Shown one piece after another: positions 14,720 to 26,582 of a stretch of 64,000 nt of DNA; within the stretch, counting starts at the first letter, position 1, and every line of letters starts with the position of its first letter. A program made the translations under genes and the position numbers. The notes under the pieces were generated by a model. The model was not told where the DNA came from, ran no database searches, and worked only from the letters and a program-made list of their open reading frames with translations. Source of the DNA: Pseudoxanthomonas sp. J35 (GTDB lineage Bacteria > Pseudomonadota > Gammaproteobacteria > Xanthomonadales > Xanthomonadaceae); NCBI RefSeq assembly GCF_000513995.1, contig NZ_AZVB01000002.1, positions 228,024-292,023 on the forward strand, given 5' to 3'.

Positions 14720-15982
14720 CTAGCGGTCCGGTTGCAGCCCGTGCGCGGCGTCGGTCGCCGCCAGCCGCCCACGCCCGTAGAACAGGCTCAGCAGCGGCGA
14801 GGACATCAACGTGGTGACCAGGGTCATCGCGAACAGCAGGGTGAACAGCTCCGGCCCGATCAGGCCCGCATCGAAACCGATCCTGATCACGATCAGCTCC
14901 ATCAGCCCGCGCGCGTTCATCAGCGAACCCACCGCCAGGCTGTCGCCCCAGCCGTAGCCGTTGAGGCGCGCGCCGGCGGCGCAGCCGATGATCTTGCCGG
15001 CCACCGCCACCAGCAGGATCAGCGCCAGCGCACCGGGGCCGGCGCCGGCGAAGGCCTGGCTGGTGGTGTTCTGCCCGGCCAGCGCGAACACCACCGGCAT
15101 CAGCAGCAGCACCGCCATCGGCTCGATGCGGCGGACCAGGTAGTGCAGCAGCCATTCCTCGCGCGGCAGGCACAGGCCGAACAGGAACGCGCCCAGCACC
15201 GCATGCAGGCCGACCCACTCCGCCGCGGCTGCGCAGGCCAGCACGCCGACCAGCAGCCACACCATCACCCACGGCGGCGGCTCGGTGGCGCCCGGGTGCG
15301 GACGCAGCAGGCGCGCATAGAGCGGCTCCAGCAGCACGAACACGACCGCGACGAGCGCCACGCCGCCGCCGATCGCCAGCACCACGCTGTTGCCCGGGCC
15401 GCCGCCCGACAGCGCCAGCACCAGGGCGAGGAAGATCCACACGCAGGCGTCGTCGATGACCGCGGCGCTCAACGCCAGCCGGCCGGGCGTGCTCCGCGCC
15501 AGGCCGCGGTCCTTGAGGATCCGCGCCAGCACCGGGAACGCGGTCACCGACATCACCGCCGCGATGAACAGCGCGAACGGCCAGTAGCCCACCCCGTCGG
15601 GGGCCATCCGCCGGTACAGCCACGGCGCCAGCGCCAGCGACAGCAGCAGCGGGAAGGCGATGCCCAGCACACCGATCGACACCGCCGCGCGCACCTGGCG
15701 GCGGTCGCCCTCCGGCGCGCGCAGTTCGGCGCCGACGATGAACATGAAGAACGCCACGCCGATCGTGCCCAGCCCCGAAAGCGCCGGCAGCGAGCCGGCC
15801 GAGAACAGCACCGCATGCGCGTCGGGAAGCAGCGCGCCGAACACCATCGGCCCCAGCAGCAGGCCCGCGGCCATCTCGCCGATCACCGGCGGCTGGCCGA
15901 ACCGGCGCAACACCCATCCGCACAGCCGCGCCAGCGCCAGGATGGTGACCAGCTGCAGCAACAGCACGGTGGTGGGATTCAT
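14720..15982 (-). CDS. CPA2-family cation:proton antiporter (Kef/NapA type)
   Basis: A 420-residue inner-membrane protein with about 12 hydrophobic segments, starting MNPTTVLLLQLVTILALARL. Typical CPA2 features are FGQPPVIGEMAAGLLLGP (about 28-45), SVTAFPVLARIL, the ion-binding DD pair in LSAAVIDDACVW, and MNARGLMELIVIRIGF near the C-terminus. It lacks the cytoplasmic TrkA-N domain of KefB/KefC. It probably exchanges Na+ or K+ for H+. ATG 15982 has AGAGGG four bases upstream. The 290 bases between it and the bcsC fragment hold nothing I recognise. Confidence 0.85.
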   Translation of the reverse strand: MNPTTVLLLQLVTILALARLCGWVLRRFGQPPVIGEMAAGLLLGPMVFGALLPDAHAVLFSAGSLPALSGLGTIGVAFFMFIVGAELRAPEGDRRQVRAAVSIGVLGIAFPLLLSLALAPWLYRRMAPDGVGYWPFALFIAAVMSVTAFPVLARILKDRGLARSTPGRLALSAAVIDDACVWIFLALVLALSGGGPGNSVVLAIGGGVALVAVVFVLLEPLYARLLRPHPGATEPPPWVMVWLLVGVLACAAAAEWVGLHAVLGAFLFGLCLPREEWLLHYLVRRIEPMAVLLLMPVVFALAGQNTTSQAFAGAGPGALALILLVAVAGKIIGCAAGARLNGYGWGDSLAVGSLMNARGLMELIVIRIGFDAGLIGPELFTLLFAMTLVTTLMSSPLLSLFYGRGRLAATDAAHGLQPDR

Positions 15983-16272
15983 GCAGCCCTCTGCGCAGGT
16001 ACTGGATCCCGGCAACCGCACCCGGGGCATGGAGCGGTCCGGTCGACCGGAACCGGGCCATGCTGGCCAGCGGATATTGGCACGACGCGAAGCGGAAGTG
16101 CCGGGTCCACGGGCGCGGTACGACGGCACGCCGGCGACCCGGAAGGTTTCGTCGGAAAGCGAGTACGGAGGGCAGGAGCGGCCGTGCCCGCTGGGCCATG
16201 ACGGCACGACGCGCAGCGCGCGCGTCGGCGGCGGTCCCGGCAGCGCGAGGCGGCCGGGACCGGCTGAACGGC

Positions 16273-16487
16273 TCAGTCGGCGTAAGGCGAACGCACCGGC
16301 TGCGGCTGCCGGCCGAGGTTGGCGCCGAAGCGGTCGAGCAGGAAACGCAGGTACAGGTTGGTGCCGTACTGGCGGTAGTCGCGGGCGTTGTTCAGGTCCA
16401 CCCGGCCACCCAGGAACAGCTGCCGCGACAGCTGCCACTCGGCCGCGGCGCTGAGGTTGTAGGACTGGCCGGTATGGCTCTGCGCCG
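16273..16487 (-). pseudogene. bcsC: 3' remnant of bcsC (cellulose synthase outer-membrane subunit)
   Basis: About 71 codons ending at TGA 16273. The reading frame QSYNLSAAAEWQLSRQ, LGGRVDLNNARDYRQYG and NLYLRFLLDRF matches the last strands of the BcsC C-terminal beta-barrel, where an NARDYxQ-x(n)-LYLRY pattern is typical. No start codon, signal peptide or the long TPR region of BcsC is present; the sequence passes without a gap into bcsA in a different frame. It is what is left after a deletion (see findings). Confidence 0.75.
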
Positions 16488-17273
16488 GTCCGGCGAGAAG
16501 AAGTAGTGCGGGGTCTGCACCACCGCCAGCTTCGGGTCGCGCAGGAACCAGCCCATCGACACCTGCAGGAACGAGCGCGCCGGGATGTGGTCGCAGTCGA
16601 AGATGGCGACGAACTCGCCGCTGGACTTCTTCAGCGCGGCGTTGATGTTGCCGGCCTTGGCATGGTTGTTGTTGGTGCGGGTGACGTAGTGCACGCCGAC
16701 CTGCTCGCAGAACTCGCGGAACTCCTCGCGGCGGCCGTCGTCGAGCACGTGGATGTTGAGCTTGTCCACCGGCCAGTCCAGCACGGTGGCGGCCAGCACG
16801 GTGGTGCGCACCACCGCCAGCGGCTCGTTGTAGGTGGGGATGAACACGTCCACCGTCGGCCACTGCGACTGGTCCGCCGGCAGCGGCAACGGCTTGCGGT
16901 TCAGCGGCCAGGCCACCTGGAAGTAGCCCAGCACCAGGATCAGGTAGGCGTAGACCTCGGCCAGCACCAGGCCCAGGCCGAGGGTGAGGTCGACGAAGCT
17001 GCTCCAGCCCATGGTCTCGGTCAGCCGCCACCACATGTAGCGGGTGGACATGGCCAGGGACAGGCCCATCATCGCCAGCACCGCCAGGCGGCTGCCATTG
17101 CGACGCAGGAGCAGCGCGGCGATGAACACCACCGCCGAGAACACCAGCTGCGGACCGGCCGCGAGCGGGACGGTGGCCACGAACGCCAGCACCGGCAGGG
17201 CGCTCGCCCACAGCACGACGCGGGCGCTCCAGGCGCCTGGCGCCTGGCCCTTCGGGCCCCGTTGCGGATCCAT
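16488..17273 (-). pseudogene. bcsA: 5' part of bcsA (cellulose synthase catalytic subunit), truncated
   Basis: ATG 17273 follows AAGGAGA with a five-base gap. About 262 codons are clear BcsA: four hydrophobic segments, then the GT2 domain with TVDVFIPTYNEP, NIHVLDDGRREEF, NNNHAKAGNINAAL, FVAIFDCDHIP and VVQTPHYFFSPD. Homology stops right after SPD at 16488; the frame then runs out of register through bcsC DNA to a stop at 16392. The catalytic TED and QxxRW motifs, the rear membrane helices and the PilZ c-di-GMP domain are missing, so it cannot make cellulose. It follows the bcsP-like gene by 106 bases. Confidence 0.85.
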
Positions 17274-17379
17274 CGATTCTCCTTCACCGGCCGCGCGGGC
17301 GGCCGGTCGCGTTCTCATCGGGAATGGGGGGCTGCCGCCGGCCCGATGCTCCGGCGTCGCGCAACCCCGGGAAGTGCGC

Positions 17380-17859
17380 TCAGCGGAACAGGCGGCGCAG
17401 CGGGCTTTCCTCGCCGCCGGACTCGCTCCGCCCGCCTTCGGCCAGGCGCTGGAACAGCTGTTCCAGCGGCGTCCTGGCAGGCTTGGCCGTGGTCCGCGCG
17501 GGATCGATCAGGACCACGGTGCCGCGCGCCGGCGCCGGGCCGGCAGCCGGCGCACGGGGTGCGGCCGACCCGGCCAGCATCCCCGGGAGGGTGCCGGTCG
17601 TCGGCGCCTGCACGGCGGTGGTGACCGGGGCCGGTTCCTGCACGGCCTCCAGGGCCGGCGCCTGGGGCGCGGGCTCGACCGGGTCGGCGGGCACAGCGGC
17701 CGCGGCGGAAGCCGACGCAGCCGGGGCGGACGGAGCCTTCAACGCGGCCAGGGAGAACACCTGGTAGCCGACGGGCGCGTCACCCTGCACGCCCACCCGG
17801 GCGAACAGGCCGGCTACATCGTCGAGTGGAACGCCGGCCTGGGACTTGCTGCTGCTCAT
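17380..17859 (-). CDS. BcsP/BcsR-like cellulose biosynthesis accessory protein
   Basis: A 159-residue soluble protein. The N-terminus (residues 10-45: PLDDVAGLFARVG then GYQVFSLAAL) resembles the short BcsR/BcsP motif found in cellulose operons. The middle (50-130) is a low-complexity Ala/Pro stretch, and the end PLEQLFQRLAEGG and PLRRLFR forms a basic amphipathic tail. Such proteins are thought to affect BcsA assembly or localisation. The ATG shares one base with the bcsD stop (TGATG at 17857-17861). Assignment rests mainly on context plus the weak N-terminal motif. Confidence 0.6.
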   Translation of the reverse strand: MSSSKSQAGVPLDDVAGLFARVGVQGDAPVGYQVFSLAALKAPSAPAASASAAAAVPADPVEPAPQAPALEAVQEPAPVTTAVQAPTTGTLPGMLAGSAAPRAPAAGPAPARGTVVLIDPARTTAKPARTPLEQLFQRLAEGGRSESGGEESPLRRLFR

Positions 17860-18320
17860 CAATGGGACCTGCTCACGACACACGACACAGAAGGCACGTC
17901 CGGGGATTCGGCCGCGCCGGTGCTGACATCCAGGCGCGCGGACATGCCGGCGGCCCGGAACCATTCGCGGTAGACCCCTTCCAGGAAGCCCGTGGCCAGC
18001 GACGTCTGCCCCAGCACCGCGGCCAGCGGCGAGGCGACGTGGCGGATCACCACCTGGTCCGGCTGCTCCTCGAACACGGCGAAGCCCCAGTCCAGCGAGG
18101 ACCAGAGGGCGTCGACATGGGCCTGGAGTTCCTGGAGGGTGGCGGCCCTGGGCAGCGGGTGGGCCTGGGCGAAGCGGCGACCGATGCGGGCCATCAGCCG
18201 CGCCTGGTCGTCCTCGTCGAGGGCTTGTGCCACCTCTTCCGCCAGCGCACGGACGAACCCGCGCCACTGGGGCGAACAGGACTGCGAGCGGTAGTAGTCC
18301 AGCGTATTGTTCAGATTCAT
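17859..18320 (-). CDS. bcsD: cellulose synthase subunit BcsD
   Basis: A 153-residue cytoplasmic/periplasmic scaffold-type protein known from Komagataeibacter, where it arranges glucan chains for crystallisation. The recognisable pattern is WRGFVRALAEEV, LMARIGRRFAQAHPLP, LQAHVDALWSSLDWGFA, IRHVASPLAAVLG and the C-terminal GFLEGVYREWFRAAG. It is the first gene of the remaining bcs unit (bcsD–bcsP–bcsA'–'bcsC). No good Shine-Dalgarno precedes ATG 18320. With bcsA broken it has no obvious function here unless a second cellulose locus exists. Confidence 0.8.
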   Translation of the reverse strand: MNLNNTLDYYRSQSCSPQWRGFVRALAEEVAQALDEDDQARLMARIGRRFAQAHPLPRAATLQELQAHVDALWSSLDWGFAVFEEQPDQVVIRHVASPLAAVLGQTSLATGFLEGVYREWFRAAGMSARLDVSTGAAESPDVPSVSCVVSRSH

Positions 18321-18404
18321 GAACCCAAGAACAGCCCGACGCCTCCCGCCGGCAACCGAAATGCGGTCCCGGGCCCGTCCCTGGGTGGCGAAGCCTTAAG
18401 AAGA

Positions 18405-18420
18405 TGAGAAATTCGTCTCA
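18405..18420. promoter_or_regulatory. TGAGA-N6-TCTCA inverted repeat upstream of bcsD
   Basis: TGAGAAATTCGTCTCA is a perfect 5-6-5 inverted repeat within an AT-rich patch (18396-18435) in otherwise GC-rich DNA, 85 bases before the bcsD start. The geometry is that of CRP/Clp-family sites (TGTGA-N6-TCACA), although two bases per arm differ. The rest of the 318-base gap (18321-18638) shows no gene. Confidence 0.4.
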
Positions 18421-18638
18421 AAATTCCAGTAACGGCCGGCAACGGACCCTCTCCGCACCTGCCGCGCTGACGCCCTTTGGCAGGAGGACGGGTGCCCCGC
18501 CTCCCCTGCCGCGGATTGCCTCGGATGCAGGCTAGCAGGCCCCTATCGGGGAATCCTTGATCCTGCTCAATGACCCCCGCCTGCGCGGCCGGACCGGCCG
18601 GGACCGACGACGGATCGCGACCCGGCCGGCAGCGGGCT

Positions 18639-19340
18639 TCAGGGAAACACGTCGATGAACGTGTTGATCGACAGCCGCCCGTTGCGCGGGTCCGGCGGCG
18701 GGACGCGGCTGTTGTCGATGGTCGCCGAATGCAGGGAATTGCGCCGGTACACCAGCATCCGGTTGTAGACGCCGTCGACCTTGTCGATCCGCTCGAACAG
18801 TGGCGTGTCCTCGCCGATGTAGCCCGGGCTGGGCGCGTCCGGGCCGAGGCTCTCCATCTGCAGGCGGGTGAAGTAGGCCAGCTCCCGGTCCTCGTCCACG
18901 TACTCGTAGCCGGTGCTGCGGTGGCGGTAGAAGGCGGTGCCGCCCCAGCCCTCGTGGAACAGGTAGTGCACCGTGGCCAGGCCGCGCCCGGTGGCCGAGT
19001 CGATGTGCGGGATCCGCTGCAGGAACACCAGCTTCTCCGGTGGCTGGGTCACCAGCGAGTAGTGGCACATCGGGAAGGCCAGTCGCGCCTGCGGCGGCAG
19101 TCCGAACACCTCGCCCATGAGCGGCCGCAGCAGTTTCTCTAGGAAGGCCTCGTAGGACAGCGGCGCGCGCATGCGGATCCCGGGGAACATCGCCCCCTGC
19201 GGGGTGAAGTGGCCGCGCTCGGCCTTGCGCACGAGCCGGTCGGGATCGGCCACCAGCTGGTCGATGACCAGCAGCGGTGCGCCCTCGGCGCCGATCCGCC
19301 GTACCTGGAGGTGCAGCCCGGGATGCGCCTCGATCAGCAT
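18639..19340 (-). CDS. DUF6445 family protein
   Basis: A 233-residue protein without signal or membrane segment. It shows GIRMRAPLSYEAFLEKLL, FPMCHYSLVTQPPEKL, QRIPHIDSATGRGLATVHYL, GWGGTAFYRHRSTGYEYV and YNRMLVYRRNSLHSA. The H-x-D in PHID and spaced histidines suggest a 2-oxoglutarate/Fe-type double-stranded beta-helix, which is my inference. The family is repeatedly found beside tryptophan-halogenase-like genes and TonB receptors. It starts seven bases after the halogenase-like gene and is the last gene of the cluster. Function is unknown. Confidence 0.65.
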   Translation of the reverse strand: MLIEAHPGLHLQVRRIGAEGAPLLVIDQLVADPDRLVRKAERGHFTPQGAMFPGIRMRAPLSYEAFLEKLLRPLMGEVFGLPPQARLAFPMCHYSLVTQPPEKLVFLQRIPHIDSATGRGLATVHYLFHEGWGGTAFYRHRSTGYEYVDEDRELAYFTRLQMESLGPDAPSPGYIGEDTPLFERIDKVDGVYNRMLVYRRNSLHSATIDNSRVPPPDPRNGRLSINTFIDVFP

Positions 19341-19347
19341 CGGCGCA

Positions 19348-20976
19348 TCACCGGACCAGGCCGCCGCCGAGGCCGGCGATCCTGCCGGTCACCTTCTCGT
19401 GCTGCCGGGCGCGTGCGTACATCTCCTCCCAGGCCGAGGGCGGCGCCTTGCAGTAGCTCGCGATGAACTGCTCCTGGCTGGGCATGGCCGCCACGGCGGC
19501 TTCGATCGGCCTGCGCACGCCCTCGAGCAGGCGCTTGAGGTCGGCGTCCGACAGCGCGCGGGTCAGCGGATGGTGGCTGCGCGGCATCACGCCCTGGCCG
19601 AGCATGCAGTGGGTCCAGGAATCGAGGCGGAACAGTTCGTCTTCCCCCTGCCACGCGTAGCCGGTCTCGCGGAACACCTGGATGCGCTCGCCCAGGCCGG
19701 GTGGCAGTTCCATTTCGCGGCACTGCTTCCACAGCGGCTCGTCGCGCTGGTTGAGGTGGTAATGCATCACGACGAAATCGCGGACGTGCTCCAGCTCCTG
19801 GCGACTGACCTCGTTGAAGCGGTCCACCGCCGCCTGGCTGATGCCCTCGGAGGGGAAGAACTGCACCAGGCGGGTGACCGCGCTCAGGGTCAGGTGGATG
19901 CTGGTGGACTCCAGCGGTTCGATGAAGCCGCTCGCCAGCCCGAGCGCGATCACGTTCTTGTTCCAGGTCTTGCGCCGGCGACCGGTGCGGAACGGGATGA
20001 TCCACGGGTCGCGCAGCGGCTTGGCCGGGTTCTCGGCGAGCAGCCTGGCGGTCGCCTCGTCGTCGGACATGTGCGCATCGGAAAACACGATGCCGCACCC
20101 GATCCGGTGCTGGAGCGAGATCTTCCAGTGCCAGCCGGCCTCGTGCGCGATCGCGCGCGTGTACGGCACCGGCGGCCCGTCGGCTTCGGTCTGCAGCGCC
20201 ACCGCGCGGTTGCTTGGCAGCCAGTGGTTCCAGTCCTCGTAGCCGGTGTGCAGCGCCTGCTCGCTCAGCACCGCGCGCGCGCCGGTGCAGTCGATGAACA
20301 GGTCGCCCTCGATGACCTGCCCGTCCTCCAGCACCAGCGCCTGCACGTAGCCGCTGTCCGGATCCTGGCGCACCTGCGCGATCTTGCCCTCGACGCGCCT
20401 GAGCCCGCGGCCCTCGCACTTGACCCGCATGAACGCCGCATACAGCCCGGCGTCGAAGTGGTAGGCGTAGCTCACCTCGCGACGCTCCGCCGTGGCCGCC
20501 TTGGTCCAGCGCATCGACCACTGCTGGGCGTTCTGGCCGGCATCGAACAGGGCGAACCGGTCCTGGAGCGCGGCGACGGTTTCCAGGCAGTAGTCGCCCA
20601 GTTCGCTCTGCATGCCGCGGCGGCGGCTTTCCAGCCAGAACTGGTGGAAGTCGCACGACCAGGTGTTCACGCCGGTGGTGCCGAACGGATGGATGTAGCG
20701 CGACCCCGGGCGGAGCCAGTTCTCGAACGAGATCGCCAGCTTGAAGCTGCCGGCGACCGAGCTGAGGAATTCGCGCTCGTCGATCTGCAGCAGGCGGTGG
20801 AACGTGCGGATGGTCGGGATCGTGGACTCGCCCACGCCGACGGTGCCGACCTGCTCGGACTCCACCAGGGTGACGTCCAGCAGGTCGCGGAACTGGTGGG
20901 TCAACGCGCACGCGGCCACCCATCCGGCGGTACCGCCGCCGGCGATGACGACCTTGCGGATCCTGTTGTTCTCCAA
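19348..20976 (-). CDS. tryptophan-halogenase-like flavoprotein
   Basis: A 542-residue FAD-dependent protein of the flavin halogenase family. The Rossmann loop is VVIAGGGTAGWVAACAL (9-25); VGVGESTIP (46-54) is present; the lysine that handles hypochlorous acid in known halogenases corresponds to K79 in SFKLAISFENW, and the catalytic glutamate to E356 in EPLESTSIHL. The family's G-W-x-W-x-I-P motif reads GWHWKISL (281-288), with serine for proline. Start is TTG 20976, because GGAGG stands five bases upstream and MENNRIRKVVIAGGG is the usual N-terminus; no ATG fits. Homologues in TonB-receptor clusters are annotated as tryptophan halogenases, but their substrate is unknown. Confidence 0.85.
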   Translation of the reverse strand: MENNRIRKVVIAGGGTAGWVAACALTHQFRDLLDVTLVESEQVGTVGVGESTIPTIRTFHRLLQIDEREFLSSVAGSFKLAISFENWLRPGSRYIHPFGTTGVNTWSCDFHQFWLESRRRGMQSELGDYCLETVAALQDRFALFDAGQNAQQWSMRWTKAATAERREVSYAYHFDAGLYAAFMRVKCEGRGLRRVEGKIAQVRQDPDSGYVQALVLEDGQVIEGDLFIDCTGARAVLSEQALHTGYEDWNHWLPSNRAVALQTEADGPPVPYTRAIAHEAGWHWKISLQHRIGCGIVFSDAHMSDDEATARLLAENPAKPLRDPWIIPFRTGRRRKTWNKNVIALGLASGFIEPLESTSIHLTLSAVTRLVQFFPSEGISQAAVDRFNEVSRQELEHVRDFVVMHYHLNQRDEPLWKQCREMELPPGLGERIQVFRETGYAWQGEDELFRLDSWTHCMLGQGVMPRSHHPLTRALSDADLKRLLEGVRRPIEAAVAAMPSQEQFIASYCKAPPSAWEEMYARARQHEKVTGRIAGLGGGLVR

Positions 20977-21088
20977 GACTCCCTCCCCTCAGCATTGCAT
21001 TGCCGCGTCGCGCGGCCCGTTCGTCCCACCGGCGTCGCTTGCGCCGCCTGCCCCTGTCCCGCTCCGCGAGCGCGCGTCGCCGCGCGGA

Positions 21089-22111
21089 TCAGCGGTTGAG
21101 CTTGCCCATCAGCAGCGCGCGCATGCGGCGCGCGGTCATCTCGTCGAACGGCCCGAGGAAACCGCGCGCGGCCTCGGGCAGGTGCTCCACGGACCGTCCT
21201 GCAGGGCCGAACACGTAGTACTCGAACACTTCGCGCCAGGCCTGCTTCTCGTTCTCGGGCCGGTCGCGCAACGCCCAGATCGCGTGGTAAAGCGCGTGCA
21301 TCGGCGTGGGGATCCACGCCGGCATGCTGCCCCACCAGTAGTTCACCAGCACGGTGAACGGGTCCAGTCCCTGCACGTGGTGCCACCACATGCTCGGGAT
21401 GAAGATCGCGTCGCCCGGCTCCAGCACCACGCTCTGGCCGACCGCCATCGCCTCGCGGAAGCGCGGGAAGCGCTCCAGGTCCGGCGCGTTGAAATCGACC
21501 ACGCTCACCGCCTGCCCGCCCGGCGTGGGTTCCAGCGGCCCCGGGTAGAGGTTGCCGATCTGGTCCGGCGGGAACAGGGTGAAGCGGCGCCGGCCCACGG
21601 CGCAGCAGGCGATGTTGTTCGGCGCGTCGTAATGGCACGAGGCGGTGACCCGGTTGCCGATCCAGATCGCCGGCGGCGCCTCGACGCCGTGCGCGGCGAA
21701 GTCCAGGTCGTTGCCGGCGCGCAGGCCCGGCAGGCAGTAGTCGACCAGCAGCGAGGCGACGTAATAGGTGGGCGGACGCGGATCGTCCTGGAAGCCGGCC
21801 AGCTCGTCCAGCACCTGGTCGAGAGTGCCGCGGCGGACCTCGCAGTTGAGCCCGGTGAACCCGGGCCTGTAGAACGGGCGGCCCGCGGTCTCCGGCTCGC
21901 CCCAGTTGTACTGCACCGGACGGCCGTTGTAGTGCGCGCGCAGCTCGTCCATCGCCGCCTGTGGCGAACGCAGGCCCGCCTGGACCAGGGTCCAGTCGCG
22001 GGCCAGCCCCTTGAGCACGGTGGGCAGGTTGTCGCGCAGCAGCGTTTCCAGGGGCAGCGCATCCGGGCGGCAGCCCTCGATCACACGCACGCTTGCCAGC
22101 TGGTCGAGCAT
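21089..22111 (-). CDS. JmjC/cupin-like domain protein (Fe(II)/2-oxoglutarate hydroxylase type)
   Basis: A 340-residue protein of the cupin_8 (FIH-like) group. The metal-binding H-x-D...H triad is visible as ASCHYDAPNNIACC and, downstream, FIPSMWWHHVQGL. Further family marks are PTVLKGLARDW near the start, PAIWIGN, GRRRFTLFPPDQIGNLYPGP and VVDFNAPDLERFP. It is expected to hydroxylate an unknown, possibly protein, substrate. The start lies one base from the SapC stop, so the two genes are translated together. It is followed after 112 bases by the halogenase-like gene. Confidence 0.82.
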   Translation of the reverse strand: MLDQLASVRVIEGCRPDALPLETLLRDNLPTVLKGLARDWTLVQAGLRSPQAAMDELRAHYNGRPVQYNWGEPETAGRPFYRPGFTGLNCEVRRGTLDQVLDELAGFQDDPRPPTYYVASLLVDYCLPGLRAGNDLDFAAHGVEAPPAIWIGNRVTASCHYDAPNNIACCAVGRRRFTLFPPDQIGNLYPGPLEPTPGGQAVSVVDFNAPDLERFPRFREAMAVGQSVVLEPGDAIFIPSMWWHHVQGLDPFTVLVNYWWGSMPAWIPTPMHALYHAIWALRDRPENEKQAWREVFEYYVFGPAGRSVEHLPEAARGFLGPFDEMTARRMRALLMGKLNR

Positions 22112-22112
22112 C

Positions 22113-22865
22113 TCAGGCTGCCTGCTCCTGCCTGCCTTCCTGTTCGCGGATGCGGCGCTGCTTCTCGGCGATCAGCCGGCGCATGTTGTACAGCGAGCTC
22201 AGCACCAGGTAGGCGCCTTCCAGCCAGCCGGAGCGGTACAGGCCGTGCAGCGCCTCGGCATCCAGCGCCGCCAGGCGCTCGCGGTCGATGCCGTAAAGGC
22301 CGGTCAGCTTGACCTGGTGGGCGTCGTCGAAGCGGATCTCCAGGGTCACCGGCTGGACCAGCTGCAGCGCGTCGAGCGCGGCGAACATCTCGCGCCCGGC
22401 CTGCACGCCGTCGTTGATGCCGCGCAGCACGGCGATGACCCGGTCCAGGTAGGGCGTGTTGCCGCCGTGCTCGGTGAACACCGGCTCGCCCTCGCCGCCG
22501 GCGACGCGCGGGTGCTCCAGGTCCACGTGGACCACCGGCTCGGCGCGCAGCTGGCCGTCGACCTGCCGCTCCTGGAAGCCGATCAGGAACGGCCCGCGCG
22601 CCACCGCGCCGGGCAGGTAGGTGGCGTTCCAGCGGTCGCCGTCCAGGTACAGGTTCTCGCGCTGCTCGAAGCCCAGCAGGGCGATCGCGTGGAACTGGCC
22701 GTCGGCGTCCTTGCGCAGGAAGATCGGGTATTCGCGCTGCAGCTCGGCGAACTCGGTGGGGAAAGCCTGGACCATGCCGACGTCGTCGCCGAACTGCGCG
22801 CCGAAGCGTGTGGTCACGCGCAGGTTCGCGTGCGCGATGTTGTCGAGCAGTTCGTATCGGGCCAT
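22113..22865 (-). CDS. SapC family protein
   Basis: A 250-residue cytoplasmic protein. It shows the SapC pattern (named after a Campylobacter surface-array gene): AFPTEFAELQREYPIFLRKD, FHAIALLGFEQRENLYLDG, WNATYLPGAVARGPFLIGFQ and a C-terminal LSSLYNMRRLIAEKQRRI with a charged tail. ATG 22865 has GGAG six bases upstream. SapC genes regularly accompany TonB receptors and halogenase-like genes in xanthomonads and Caulobacter. Biochemical function is unknown. It is separated from the receptor by a strong terminator, so it may have its own promoter or depend on read-through. Confidence 0.82.
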   Translation of the reverse strand: MARYELLDNIAHANLRVTTRFGAQFGDDVGMVQAFPTEFAELQREYPIFLRKDADGQFHAIALLGFEQRENLYLDGDRWNATYLPGAVARGPFLIGFQERQVDGQLRAEPVVHVDLEHPRVAGGEGEPVFTEHGGNTPYLDRVIAVLRGINDGVQAGREMFAALDALQLVQPVTLEIRFDDAHQVKLTGLYGIDRERLAALDAEALHGLYRSGWLEGAYLVLSSLYNMRRLIAEKQRRIREQEGRQEQAA

Positions 22866-22993
22866 CTCGGCTCCATTGGATTCGTCGGCCCCGGTGGTGC
22901 CGGCCTGCCCGGGCCGCGCGCAGGCCACGGCGCGACCATATCGGCAATCCCGCGCGGGCCGCAAGCTGCGCCGCGACGGCATCCCCGGGGGTG

Positions 22994-23025
22994 AAAAAAG
23001 GGACCGCTGCGGGGCAGCGGTCCCT
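22994..23025 (-). terminator. intrinsic terminator after the TonB receptor
   Basis: On the minus strand AGGGACCGCTGC and GCAGCGGTCCCT form a perfect 12-base stem with a CCC loop, followed by six U (22999-22994). It begins 36 bases after the receptor stop. Confidence 0.92.
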
Positions 23026-23060
23026 CTGCTTCATTGCGACAAGCGTACGGGCGGCATCGG

Positions 23061-26000
23061 TCAGAACGTGTAGCGCACGCCCACCATGTAGCGCGGCGAC
23101 TGGTCGAGCAGGCGGACCATCTGGTTGTGCGAACGGGCGCTCCAGCGGATATCCTCGCCGGTGAGGTTGATCGCCTCGAGCGACACGGTGAAGTTGTCGT
23201 TGAAGCTGTACGCCACCGAGAAGTCGATCTGCTCGTACTCCTCGACGAAGTACGGGTTGCGGTTGTTGCCGTTCTGGTTGGCCGCCAGCAGGTACTCGTC
23301 GCGCCAGTTCCAGGCCAGTCGCGCCGACCAGCCGTACTTCTCGAACATCAGCACGGCGTTGGCGGTGTCGCTCAGCCCGGTCAACGCGAACACGTTGGCG
23401 CCCGGGTCGGCCGCGCGGTCGATGCCGACGTCGCCCTTGACGATGGTGTAGTTGGCCAGCAGGCCGAAACCACTGTCGCCGAAGAAGTACTGGCCGCCGA
23501 TCTCCCAGCCGTGCAGCCTGGCCGAGCGCTGGTTGATCGGGCGGTTGACGTCGAACTCGTACAGCGGGTCGGCGGACGTGCCGACGATGTCGAAGCGGTT
23601 CTCCATGTCCAGGACCTGGGCGTTGCTGCCGTCGTAGGCGGCCAGGCCGCCAGTCGCGGCCTCGTTGCGCAGCATCGCCAGGGCGGTGAACAGCGTGGTG
23701 TAGTTCCCCACGCAGCCCTCGGCCGGGTCGTTACCCGCGGCGGTGACCTGGGTCTGGCACGCGGCGCTGTTGAGGAACGCCAGCGCCGCCTGCGCGTCCG
23801 GGCCCGAGGTCGGGTCGGTGATGCCGTACAGGTTCTCGCGGACCACCGTGTTGCCGATGAAGTTCTTGACGTCCTTGTTCCAGTACGTCACGCCGACGAA
23901 GCTGGACGGCGCGAAGTACCACTCCAGGCCGAGGTCGATGTTGCGCGACTCCAGCGGCAGCAGCGACGGGTTCTCGGCGTTGCCGGTGCCGCGGAACTGC
24001 TCGCCGAACAGGATCGAACCGCTGGGCGCGCCGGGGTTGGGACCGGCGTAGAGGTTGCCGTACGGCGCCCGGGCGATGGTCTTGCTCGCCGAGAAGCGGC
24101 CCTTCAGGTCGTCGGTGAAGTCGATGCTGAAGTCCAGGTTCGGCAGCAGGTAGTCGTACTCGTTCTTCTCCGAGAACGGCTGGGCCTCGTCCGAACGGTT
24201 GATCACGAAGTCGTTGTTGGACATCCAGCGGATGCCGTTCGGGACCTGGATCACCGAGGTCGAGGTCAGCTCGGTCTTCTCGTAGCGCAGGCCGATGACG
24301 GTGTAGGTCGGCATGCTGCCGAGGTGGCCGTCCTGCTCCCACTGGATGTAGACCGACCGGGTCTCCTCCTCCACCAGGTTGTCATTGTCGTAGACCGTGC
24401 GCACCTTCGAGCTGAGCGTGTCGCACTCCGGCCACGAGGCCGGGGCGGTGCCGTTGGCGCAGGCCTCCTCGGCCCACTGCGCCAGGGCGCTGGCCTGGCC
24501 CCACCACGCGCCGCGCGCGGCATCGGTGGTGTCGTAGTCCTTGAACAGGTCGACGATGCTGAAGGCCTTGAGCAGCGCGGCCATGCCCGGCACCTGGCCG
24601 GTGTCGTTCGCGCTCCAGTTGCCCAGGGTCATCAGGTGGGCGTGGCCGTCCACGTTCAGGCGCCGCATCGACACCTCGGACGAATCGACGCCGAACTTGA
24701 AGCGGCCGTTATCGAAGTCGAGCACGCCGTCCAGCCTGCCCTGCTTGACCTCGCTGTCCTGGCGCGTCGACCAGATGCGCAGGATCTGCGAGCCCAGCTG
24801 GTCGGGGGCGAAGTCCGGGTTGATGATGCCGTTGGTGTTGGCGATCGCGTCGGCGGTGGACGGGAACAGCGTGCGCTTCATGATCGGAAGGCCGCTGTTG
24901 AACCAGTACTCCTGGGTCCAGTTGTTGTTGAGGCGATCCGGGGCCAGGCCGGCGAAGCTGAAGGCGGTGGAGCTGCCGCCGGTGATCGGGTCGTTCGGCC
25001 GGCTCTCGTTCTTGGTGTTGTGCGCGTCGAAGTTCAGGGAGAAGCGGTCGCTGACCTGCCACTGCACGTTCAGGCCCAGCGAACCGAGCTTGTACTTCTG
25101 CTCGTCGCGCTGCTGCTCGAAGCCGAAGTCCTTGCCGGCGCCGGCGATGTCGCGGATGTAGACCGGCGTGGCCACGTCCGGGTCGTCGTCGAAGGTCACG
25201 TGGCTGAGGCTGTTCTGCAGCCACATGGTCTGCTCGCCACGGTTCTGCGCGATCTCGTTGGTCGAGTAGGTGTAGTCCAGGGTGAAGGTGAACGCGTCGT
25301 TCGGGGCGAACTGCAGGATCGCCTGGCCGTTGATGCGCTCGCGCTCGAAGTCCTGGAAGGCGTAGCGCAGGTCGTTCGGCATGCTGTACAGCTGGCCGAT
25401 CGCCGGCGCGTTCTCCACGATCGCGCCCGGGCGCAGGCGCGAGTCGGTGCCGGTCCAGCGGGCCACGTTCCAGGCGTTCTCGGTGGCCTGCACCGAACCG
25501 CCGTGGCGCTTCTGGTAGCTGGCGTTGACGCCGATGCCCCAGGTCTTGTCCGGGTTGGCGTAGCTGAAGATGCCGGAGATCTCCGGGGTCGCGTCGCTGC
25601 CGAAGATCTGCGACTGGTCGGACACGGCCTTGGCGCCGATGTTGGCGACGATGTCGCCGCCGGCATGGTTCAACGGCCGGTCGGTGAGGATGTCGATGGT
25701 CGCGCCGATGCCGCCGCTGGCCACGTTCGCGCGGCCGGTCTTGTACACGGTCACGCCGCTGATCGCTTCGGAAGCCAGCTGGGCGAAGTTGAAGCCGCGG
25801 GTGCCCGAGCCGACGCCGCCGATCTCAAGGCCGCCGCTGCCGAAGCCGTCGGCGCCGGGGATCTGCCGGCCGTTGAGGGTGACCATGTTGAAGTTGGGGC
25901 CGAAGCCGCGCGCGGTGATGGTTGCGCCCTCGCCGTCGCGGCGCTCGATCGAGATGCCGGTAACGCGCTGCAGCGACTCGGCCAGGTTGGTGTCCGGGAA

Positions 26001-26255
26001 CTTGCCGATGTCCTCGGCGCTGATCGCGTCGACGATGCCGGGGGTGTCGCGCTTGATGTTCATCGCGTGGTCGAGGCTGCTGCGCATGCCCGTGACCGTG
26101 ACGGTGTCCAGCGTGGTCGGATCGTCCTGGGCCGCCGACTGCGCCGCGGTGGCGGGCTGCTGCGGATCCTGGGCGAACGCCGGGTTGATGATGATGACGC
26201 CGCCGACGATGGTGAACATCGCCTTCGACTTGAAGCGCTTGATCCTGGAAGTCAT
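23061..26255 (-). CDS. TonB-dependent outer-membrane receptor
   Basis: A 1064-residue receptor. Residues 1-28 are a signal peptide (MTSRIKRFKSKAMFTIVGGV, then IIINPAFA). The TonB box region is LDTVTVTGMRSSL (about 49-61), followed by a plug with VDAISAEDIGKFPDTNLAES and VTGISIERRDGEGATITARG, typical of the long receptors associated with carbohydrate uptake in xanthomonads and Caulobacter. The 22-strand barrel ends in YMVGVRYTF with the outer-membrane C-terminal phenylalanine. ATG 26255 follows GAGGAC. The substrate is not known; the LacI-type operator upstream (26583-26596) points to a sugar. It heads a cluster with SapC, cupin, halogenase-like and DUF6445 genes. Confidence 0.93.
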   Translation of the reverse strand: MTSRIKRFKSKAMFTIVGGVIIINPAFAQDPQQPATAAQSAAQDDPTTLDTVTVTGMRSSLDHAMNIKRDTPGIVDAISAEDIGKFPDTNLAESLQRVTGISIERRDGEGATITARGFGPNFNMVTLNGRQIPGADGFGSGGLEIGGVGSGTRGFNFAQLASEAISGVTVYKTGRANVASGGIGATIDILTDRPLNHAGGDIVANIGAKAVSDQSQIFGSDATPEISGIFSYANPDKTWGIGVNASYQKRHGGSVQATENAWNVARWTGTDSRLRPGAIVENAPAIGQLYSMPNDLRYAFQDFERERINGQAILQFAPNDAFTFTLDYTYSTNEIAQNRGEQTMWLQNSLSHVTFDDDPDVATPVYIRDIAGAGKDFGFEQQRDEQKYKLGSLGLNVQWQVSDRFSLNFDAHNTKNESRPNDPITGGSSTAFSFAGLAPDRLNNNWTQEYWFNSGLPIMKRTLFPSTADAIANTNGIINPDFAPDQLGSQILRIWSTRQDSEVKQGRLDGVLDFDNGRFKFGVDSSEVSMRRLNVDGHAHLMTLGNWSANDTGQVPGMAALLKAFSIVDLFKDYDTTDAARGAWWGQASALAQWAEEACANGTAPASWPECDTLSSKVRTVYDNDNLVEEETRSVYIQWEQDGHLGSMPTYTVIGLRYEKTELTSTSVIQVPNGIRWMSNNDFVINRSDEAQPFSEKNEYDYLLPNLDFSIDFTDDLKGRFSASKTIARAPYGNLYAGPNPGAPSGSILFGEQFRGTGNAENPSLLPLESRNIDLGLEWYFAPSSFVGVTYWNKDVKNFIGNTVVRENLYGITDPTSGPDAQAALAFLNSAACQTQVTAAGNDPAEGCVGNYTTLFTALAMLRNEAATGGLAAYDGSNAQVLDMENRFDIVGTSADPLYEFDVNRPINQRSARLHGWEIGGQYFFGDSGFGLLANYTIVKGDVGIDRAADPGANVFALTGLSDTANAVLMFEKYGWSARLAWNWRDEYLLAANQNGNNRNPYFVEEYEQIDFSVAYSFNDNFTVSLEAINLTGEDIRWSARSHNQMVRLLDQSPRYMVGVRYTF

Positions 26256-26582
26256 GGGTGCTGTCCTCAGCTGCTCGGGTGTTGGACGGCCAAGGGCACG
26301 TCGTCCTTGATCCACGACGCGGCATGCGCCGGCGCGGTCGTTGACAGCGCGGGACACCGCAACCTGCAACTACTCATCTGCCTACCCTCCCCTTCTGCTG
26401 CTTCGATTTTTGTGGATGGCGCCCCGGCGGGGGCCTGGCAGGCCGCGGTGGGCCTGTGCAACTGGACCGGGAGTCCTTGCTGCGAACCGGCGGGTCGGGG
26501 TTCCGCCGGCGAAACCGATCGAAAGCGGTGGAGCGCGACGGGGCCGCTGCCGGCCTGTCGTCGTGGGCGGTGTTGCCACCCT

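Follow-up and report, generated by a model that had tools for sequence, protein, structure and literature searches.

Cellulose operons and their loss in bacteria

In passages of PMC11470070, the presence of BcsD is given as the mark of a type I bcs operon, and a proline-rich protein, BcsP, is described as recruiting BcsD in beta-proteobacteria. Operons for cellulose are not always kept, and passages of PMC10881479 and PMC6611641 report recurrent loss of cellulose in Escherichia coli ST95 and loss of the biofilm in invasive Salmonella. The locus studied here, in Pseudoxanthomonas sp. J35, is like these cases in that cellulose or its biofilm is lost repeatedly, as far as those passages go. It differs from them in the organisms and in the kind of change: the published cases are host-associated pathogens with other mutations (in Salmonella csgD and its promoter, in a passage of PMC6611641), whereas here a strain of a non-enteric genus shows a single large deletion. 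In the literature searched, none of the titles listed concerns a deletion of bcs genes in Pseudoxanthomonas. On the whole, the locus is an unremarkable example of a loss that keeps recurring; what it adds is one case that is precise to the base, since both ends are fixed by a relative.

Retained bcs genes and the joint

The window, by which we mean the whole stretch of 64,000 nucleotides analysed, holds what is left of the operon on its reverse strand, with the following features.

17859..18320, minus strand: bcsD, open, 153 aa; PF03500 positions 1-105 of 110, E 2.6e-21
17380..17859, minus strand: gene at the position of bcsP, open reading frame of 159 aa that overlaps the bcsD stop
16488..17273, minus strand: 5' remnant of bcsA, codons 1-262 of 716; TIGR03030 positions 10-272 of 714
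16392..17318, minus strand: open frame of the joined sequence in the list of open reading frames, made of the bcsA 5' end and some 31 unrelated residues that run to the stop
16486..16488, no strand assigned: deletion joint, from blastn of the window against the J47 locus (L029) and the sequences around both ends
16273..16487, minus strand: 3' remnant of bcsC, the last 70 residues and the stop; PF05420 positions 287-335 of 336, E 8.3e-12

Among the marks of a type I operon, BcsD is present in the window, and a complete BcsA, BcsB and a complete BcsC are not found there. The sequence-only reading had taken bcsD and the bcsP-like gene to be intact, which holds in so far as both frames are open; for bcsD, however, the final ten or so residues are unlike those of the relative J47, since the two sequences differ in length by 8 bases where the gene overlaps bcsP. 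This difference (window 17859-17900; L029:14140-14190) lies outside the PF03500 domain (residues 22-122), which is thus untouched. The gene at 17380..17859 is matched by no Pfam family at a cutoff of E 1 and by no NCBIfam family at one of E 0.001, and a search of a large protein set found three proteins, itself counted; a BcsP from nine contigs (P0122) is 95% identical to it. Its name rests on its place and on a make-up rich in proline and alanine, as judged by reading and compared with what passages of PMC11470070 say of BcsP.

The bcsA gene begins as the same reading had said, normally and with a good ribosome site, with an ATG at 17273 and GGAGAA directly ahead of it. Its remnant matches PF00535 at positions 2-124 of 168, which corresponds to the N-terminal part and the first part of the GT2 domain, and it has neither a PilZ match nor a complete GT2. 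The gene reads to VVQTPHYFFSPD before the joint at 16487, where codon 262 of bcsA gives way to the last 71 codons of bcsC, out of frame; the change of gene and frame had already been noticed from the letters at about 16488. The PF05420 match of this bcsC end spans 16485-16276, and it is the one short match to bcsC in the genome of the window (G000). As a protein, the joined open frame is not among the best 120 of the 609 proteins that the search returned.

The operon of J47 and the missing segment

A full operon in the order bcsD-bcsP-bcsA-bcsB-bcsZ-bcsC stands at the same place in Pseudoxanthomonas suwonensis J47 (G015), a member of the same genus, with bcsA (716 aa), bcsZ (385 aa) and bcsC (1,479 aa) all open and a full, stop-free match to BcsB. 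Place and order agree between this operon (L029, L050) and the window, and DNA identity is 94.7% for bcsD, 96.7% for the bcsA piece and 96.3% for the bcsC piece; J47 differs in that it keeps 9,033 bp which the window lacks, in a bcsP just 86% identical and in the other end of bcsD. By blastn the two sides align at 93.4% over 3.75 kb and 94.9% over 6.26 kb, both alignments stop at 16487, and J47 is alone among 17 genomes of the genus, that of the window included, in showing the sides at 93% and 95% with 9 kb between them. The base at 16487 has two counterparts in J47, L029:3733 within bcsC and L029:12766 within bcsA; one base is thus common to the two ends, and none is added at the joint. No repeat is seen at the ends within 120 bp around each of them, where the longest common word has 7 bp and is out of register. 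The absent part comprises bcsA beyond codon 262, bcsB and bcsZ in their entirety, and bcsC up to residue 1,409 of 1,479; the rest of bcsA, bcsB, bcsZ and most of bcsC had been said to be missing, at a guess of several kilobases, and the alignment with the relative that had been proposed sets the figure at 9.0 kb with both ends fixed and direct repeats not found.

Relocation of the missing genes within the genome is rejected: with the PF03170 profile, on which presence or absence of BcsB rests throughout, no BcsB is matched in the window's genome, and the absent 9 kb is found elsewhere in it only as short matches with listed spans of about 27-118 bp, the best of 23 covering 68 query bases at 81%. 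Window positions 16300-18320 have no match on plasmids in the near-match search.

The remnant sits between an antiporter gene and a block with DUF6445 and halogenase genes (window 15982-18639). In four other members of the genus (G001, G009, G011, G014) the antiporter gene (window 15982-14720) adjoins the DUF6445/halogenase genes, the matches being 66-173 bases apart, and in a fifth (G002) the gap between the same flanks is 118 bases. Because these five relatives have the flanks adjacent, with no room for a bcs operon, gene order points to a likely insertion of the operon there in the lineage shared by the window and J47, followed by its partial loss in the strain of the window. Beside the operon, window 18639-26369 carries genes for DUF6445, a tryptophan-halogenase-like protein, cupin_8 and SapC, and the long open reading frame that follows them looks by reading like a putative TonB-dependent receptor.

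Full-length BcsB is present in 5 of the 17 genus genomes, with a weak partial match in one more, and in the four of them other than J47 BcsA, BcsZ and BcsC are matched over all or nearly all of their length. A relative whose functional bcsA naturally ends at the joint would have spoken against a deletion; no naturally short BcsA is found among five genus relatives (G001, G006, G007, G013, G015), in all of which BcsA runs on in full or nearly so.

Age of the deletion

The retained bcsA 5' end, bcsP and bcsD hold no stops. In the comparison of the window with J47, the bcsA 5' end has a dN/dS of 0.33, bcsD of 0.245, bcsP of 0.82 and the bcsC tail of 0.045, as against 0.09-0.24 for four neighbour genes. 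The gene at the bcsP position is far more divergent than its neighbours, with 86% DNA identity to J47 at this dN/dS of 0.82, which could reflect decay, though the alignment is rich in gaps.

For the stops we chose 0.06 substitutions per site, about half the silent distance (0.11-0.13) of three of the four neighbours. At this rate, neutral evolution of the three stretches after the divergence from J47 would be expected to leave 2.6-2.8 stops in them, with a chance of 0.06-0.08 of seeing none, a weak test; the silent distance of the bcsA piece is 0.068, and half of this brings the expectation, by proportion, to about 1.5 stops. The bcsA piece has 9 amino-acid and 7 silent changes on the branch of the window against 5 and 4 on that of J47, and the relative-rate test on this 5' end gives no signal either way.

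A further protein (P0124, one contig, source 'ena') is a full-length BcsA. Over the first 261 residues of BcsA in the window, 254 are identical in P0124 and 248 in J47, with 247 identical between P0124 and J47, so that the lineage of P0124 looks nearer to the window than J47 is, and yet its bcsA is whole. Since the retained pieces are open and this nearer-looking BcsA is of full length, the deletion is likely to be recent, and the suggestion of the sequence-only reading to that effect thus receives modest support.

Explanation of the joint

We consider it highly probable (about 0.9) that one recent deletion, in which two broken ends were joined without a repeat, removed 9,033 bp of the bcs operon. 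Under this explanation a single deletion step would have taken the segment out of a type I operon, and Ku and LigD end joining would be the route. The joint fits the marks of such non-homologous end joining (NHEJ) in its 1 bp of homology, and in the genome of the window a Ku protein (PF02735) and a protein with the LigD polymerase domain (LigD_Prim-Pol, PF21686) are encoded side by side; Ku is found in all four genomes asked as against 1 of 14 control genomes. It is plausible that end joining made the joint, although the presence of Ku and LigD is no proof of their use.

The joint is seen in the assembly, and the strain itself presumably carries it. An assembler could have linked two ends and left out 9 kb present in the strain, and the genome is indeed a draft of 3.24 Mb in 33 contigs; but a collapse between repeats, which had been put forward from the letters as another source of the joint, requires a repeat that matches the assembler's word in length, and the ends share 1 bp, with a common word of at most 7 bp nearby. 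The dropped 9 kb would moreover be expected on another contig and is not found there, completeness is given as 99.99%, and the joint lies in a 292 kb contig, about 48 kb from whichever end is nearer. We regard such an artefact as improbable. Slightly less probable still is that a mobile element came and left, or that the loss took at least two steps: nothing in the window speaks for this directly, the eroded bcsC in several pieces in three family genomes (G264, G276, G347) is the nearest parallel, and the joint has neither extra bases nor a repeat. That the short BcsA is a working gene, for instance a membrane fragment retained to serve some other function alongside BcsD and BcsP, would agree with its open frame and with the constraint on bcsD between the window and J47 (dN/dS 0.245); however, it stops in mid-domain (position 124 of 168 in PF00535) with about 31 out-of-frame residues at its end, the constraint may all predate the deletion, and the nearer-looking relative has a full-length BcsA, so we give this idea hardly any credence.

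A single recent deletion without a repeat, then, is the reading that we follow for its consequences. Since the bcsA fragment lacks everything from part of the catalytic domain onward and BcsB is not found in the genome, we predict that the strain no longer secretes cellulose. There would be no synthase for the remaining bcsD and bcsP to serve; the deletion explains why they are kept without one, and their presence should not be taken to indicate that cellulose is made.

Losses of bcs genes in the family

BcsD is matched in 33 of 247 family genomes, and 30 of the 33 also have BcsB, the exceptions being the genome of the window, G105 and G117; conversely, BcsB is matched in 39 family genomes, 9 of them without a BcsD match. 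G117 is not counted as a deletion, for a contig of 8,555 bases carries its bcsA and bcsD and another carries its bcsC, which probably reflects a contig break. G105, of another genus (g17; locus L051, G105:C270:35000-54000), has a deletion of 7,783 bp from bcsB to bcsC relative to G247, with 1 bp shared by the ends. It is like the window in being a clean loss with a 1-bp joint and in keeping roughly the final 80 codons of bcsC, and unlike it in that bcsA is nearly complete (residues 31-710 of the J47 protein aligned), the deletion beginning about 50 bp past the last aligned bcsA codon. The deletion in G105 is independent of that in the window.

The end of bcsC, the only part of the gene that the PF05420 search sees, is matched in 68 of 395 family genomes, and the window's genome and G105 have the tail alone. 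Eroded pieces of bcsC occur in G264, G276 and G347. The thought that three genera (the window, G105 and G264) keep the same bcsC tail is weakened by these, as G264 has two pieces, at about residues 1219-1313 and 1419-1469 of the J47 protein, and G276 and G347 have other pieces.

Comparison with Escherichia coli

A protein labelled Escherichia coli (P0056; 526 aa, three contigs) is an in-frame fusion of BcsA and BcsC. As in the window, bcsA is joined to bcsC, and it is broken in the QTPHxFFS motif, about two codons from the break in the window; unlike in the window, the two are in frame and the BcsC part is longer. Because none of 5,426 complete E. coli genomes has a place covering 80% of the joint, the fusion is rare or a draft artefact.

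One could imagine that bcs operons have preferred break sites, so that cellulose is lost by a repeatable end-joining path and not at random places. The basis for it would be that bcsA is cut within three codons at QTPHxFFS in both Pseudoxanthomonas and E. coli, by deletions independent of each other, and that two genera of the Xanthomonadaceae family keep just the last 70-80 codons of bcsC after their deletions. A single motif match, from a query whose own end lies at that point, does little to establish such a site, and we think the idea very doubtful.

Partial losses of the operon probably occur in E. coli too: in the 5,426 complete genomes the end of bcsC is found in 5,372, bcsB in 5,308 and the start of bcsA in 5,277, counts for which the query lengths differ and of which that for bcsC may include plasmid copies. 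On E. coli plasmids, where bcsB and the start of bcsA have no matches, 127 places match the last 600 bases of bcsC (query L072:5701-6300).
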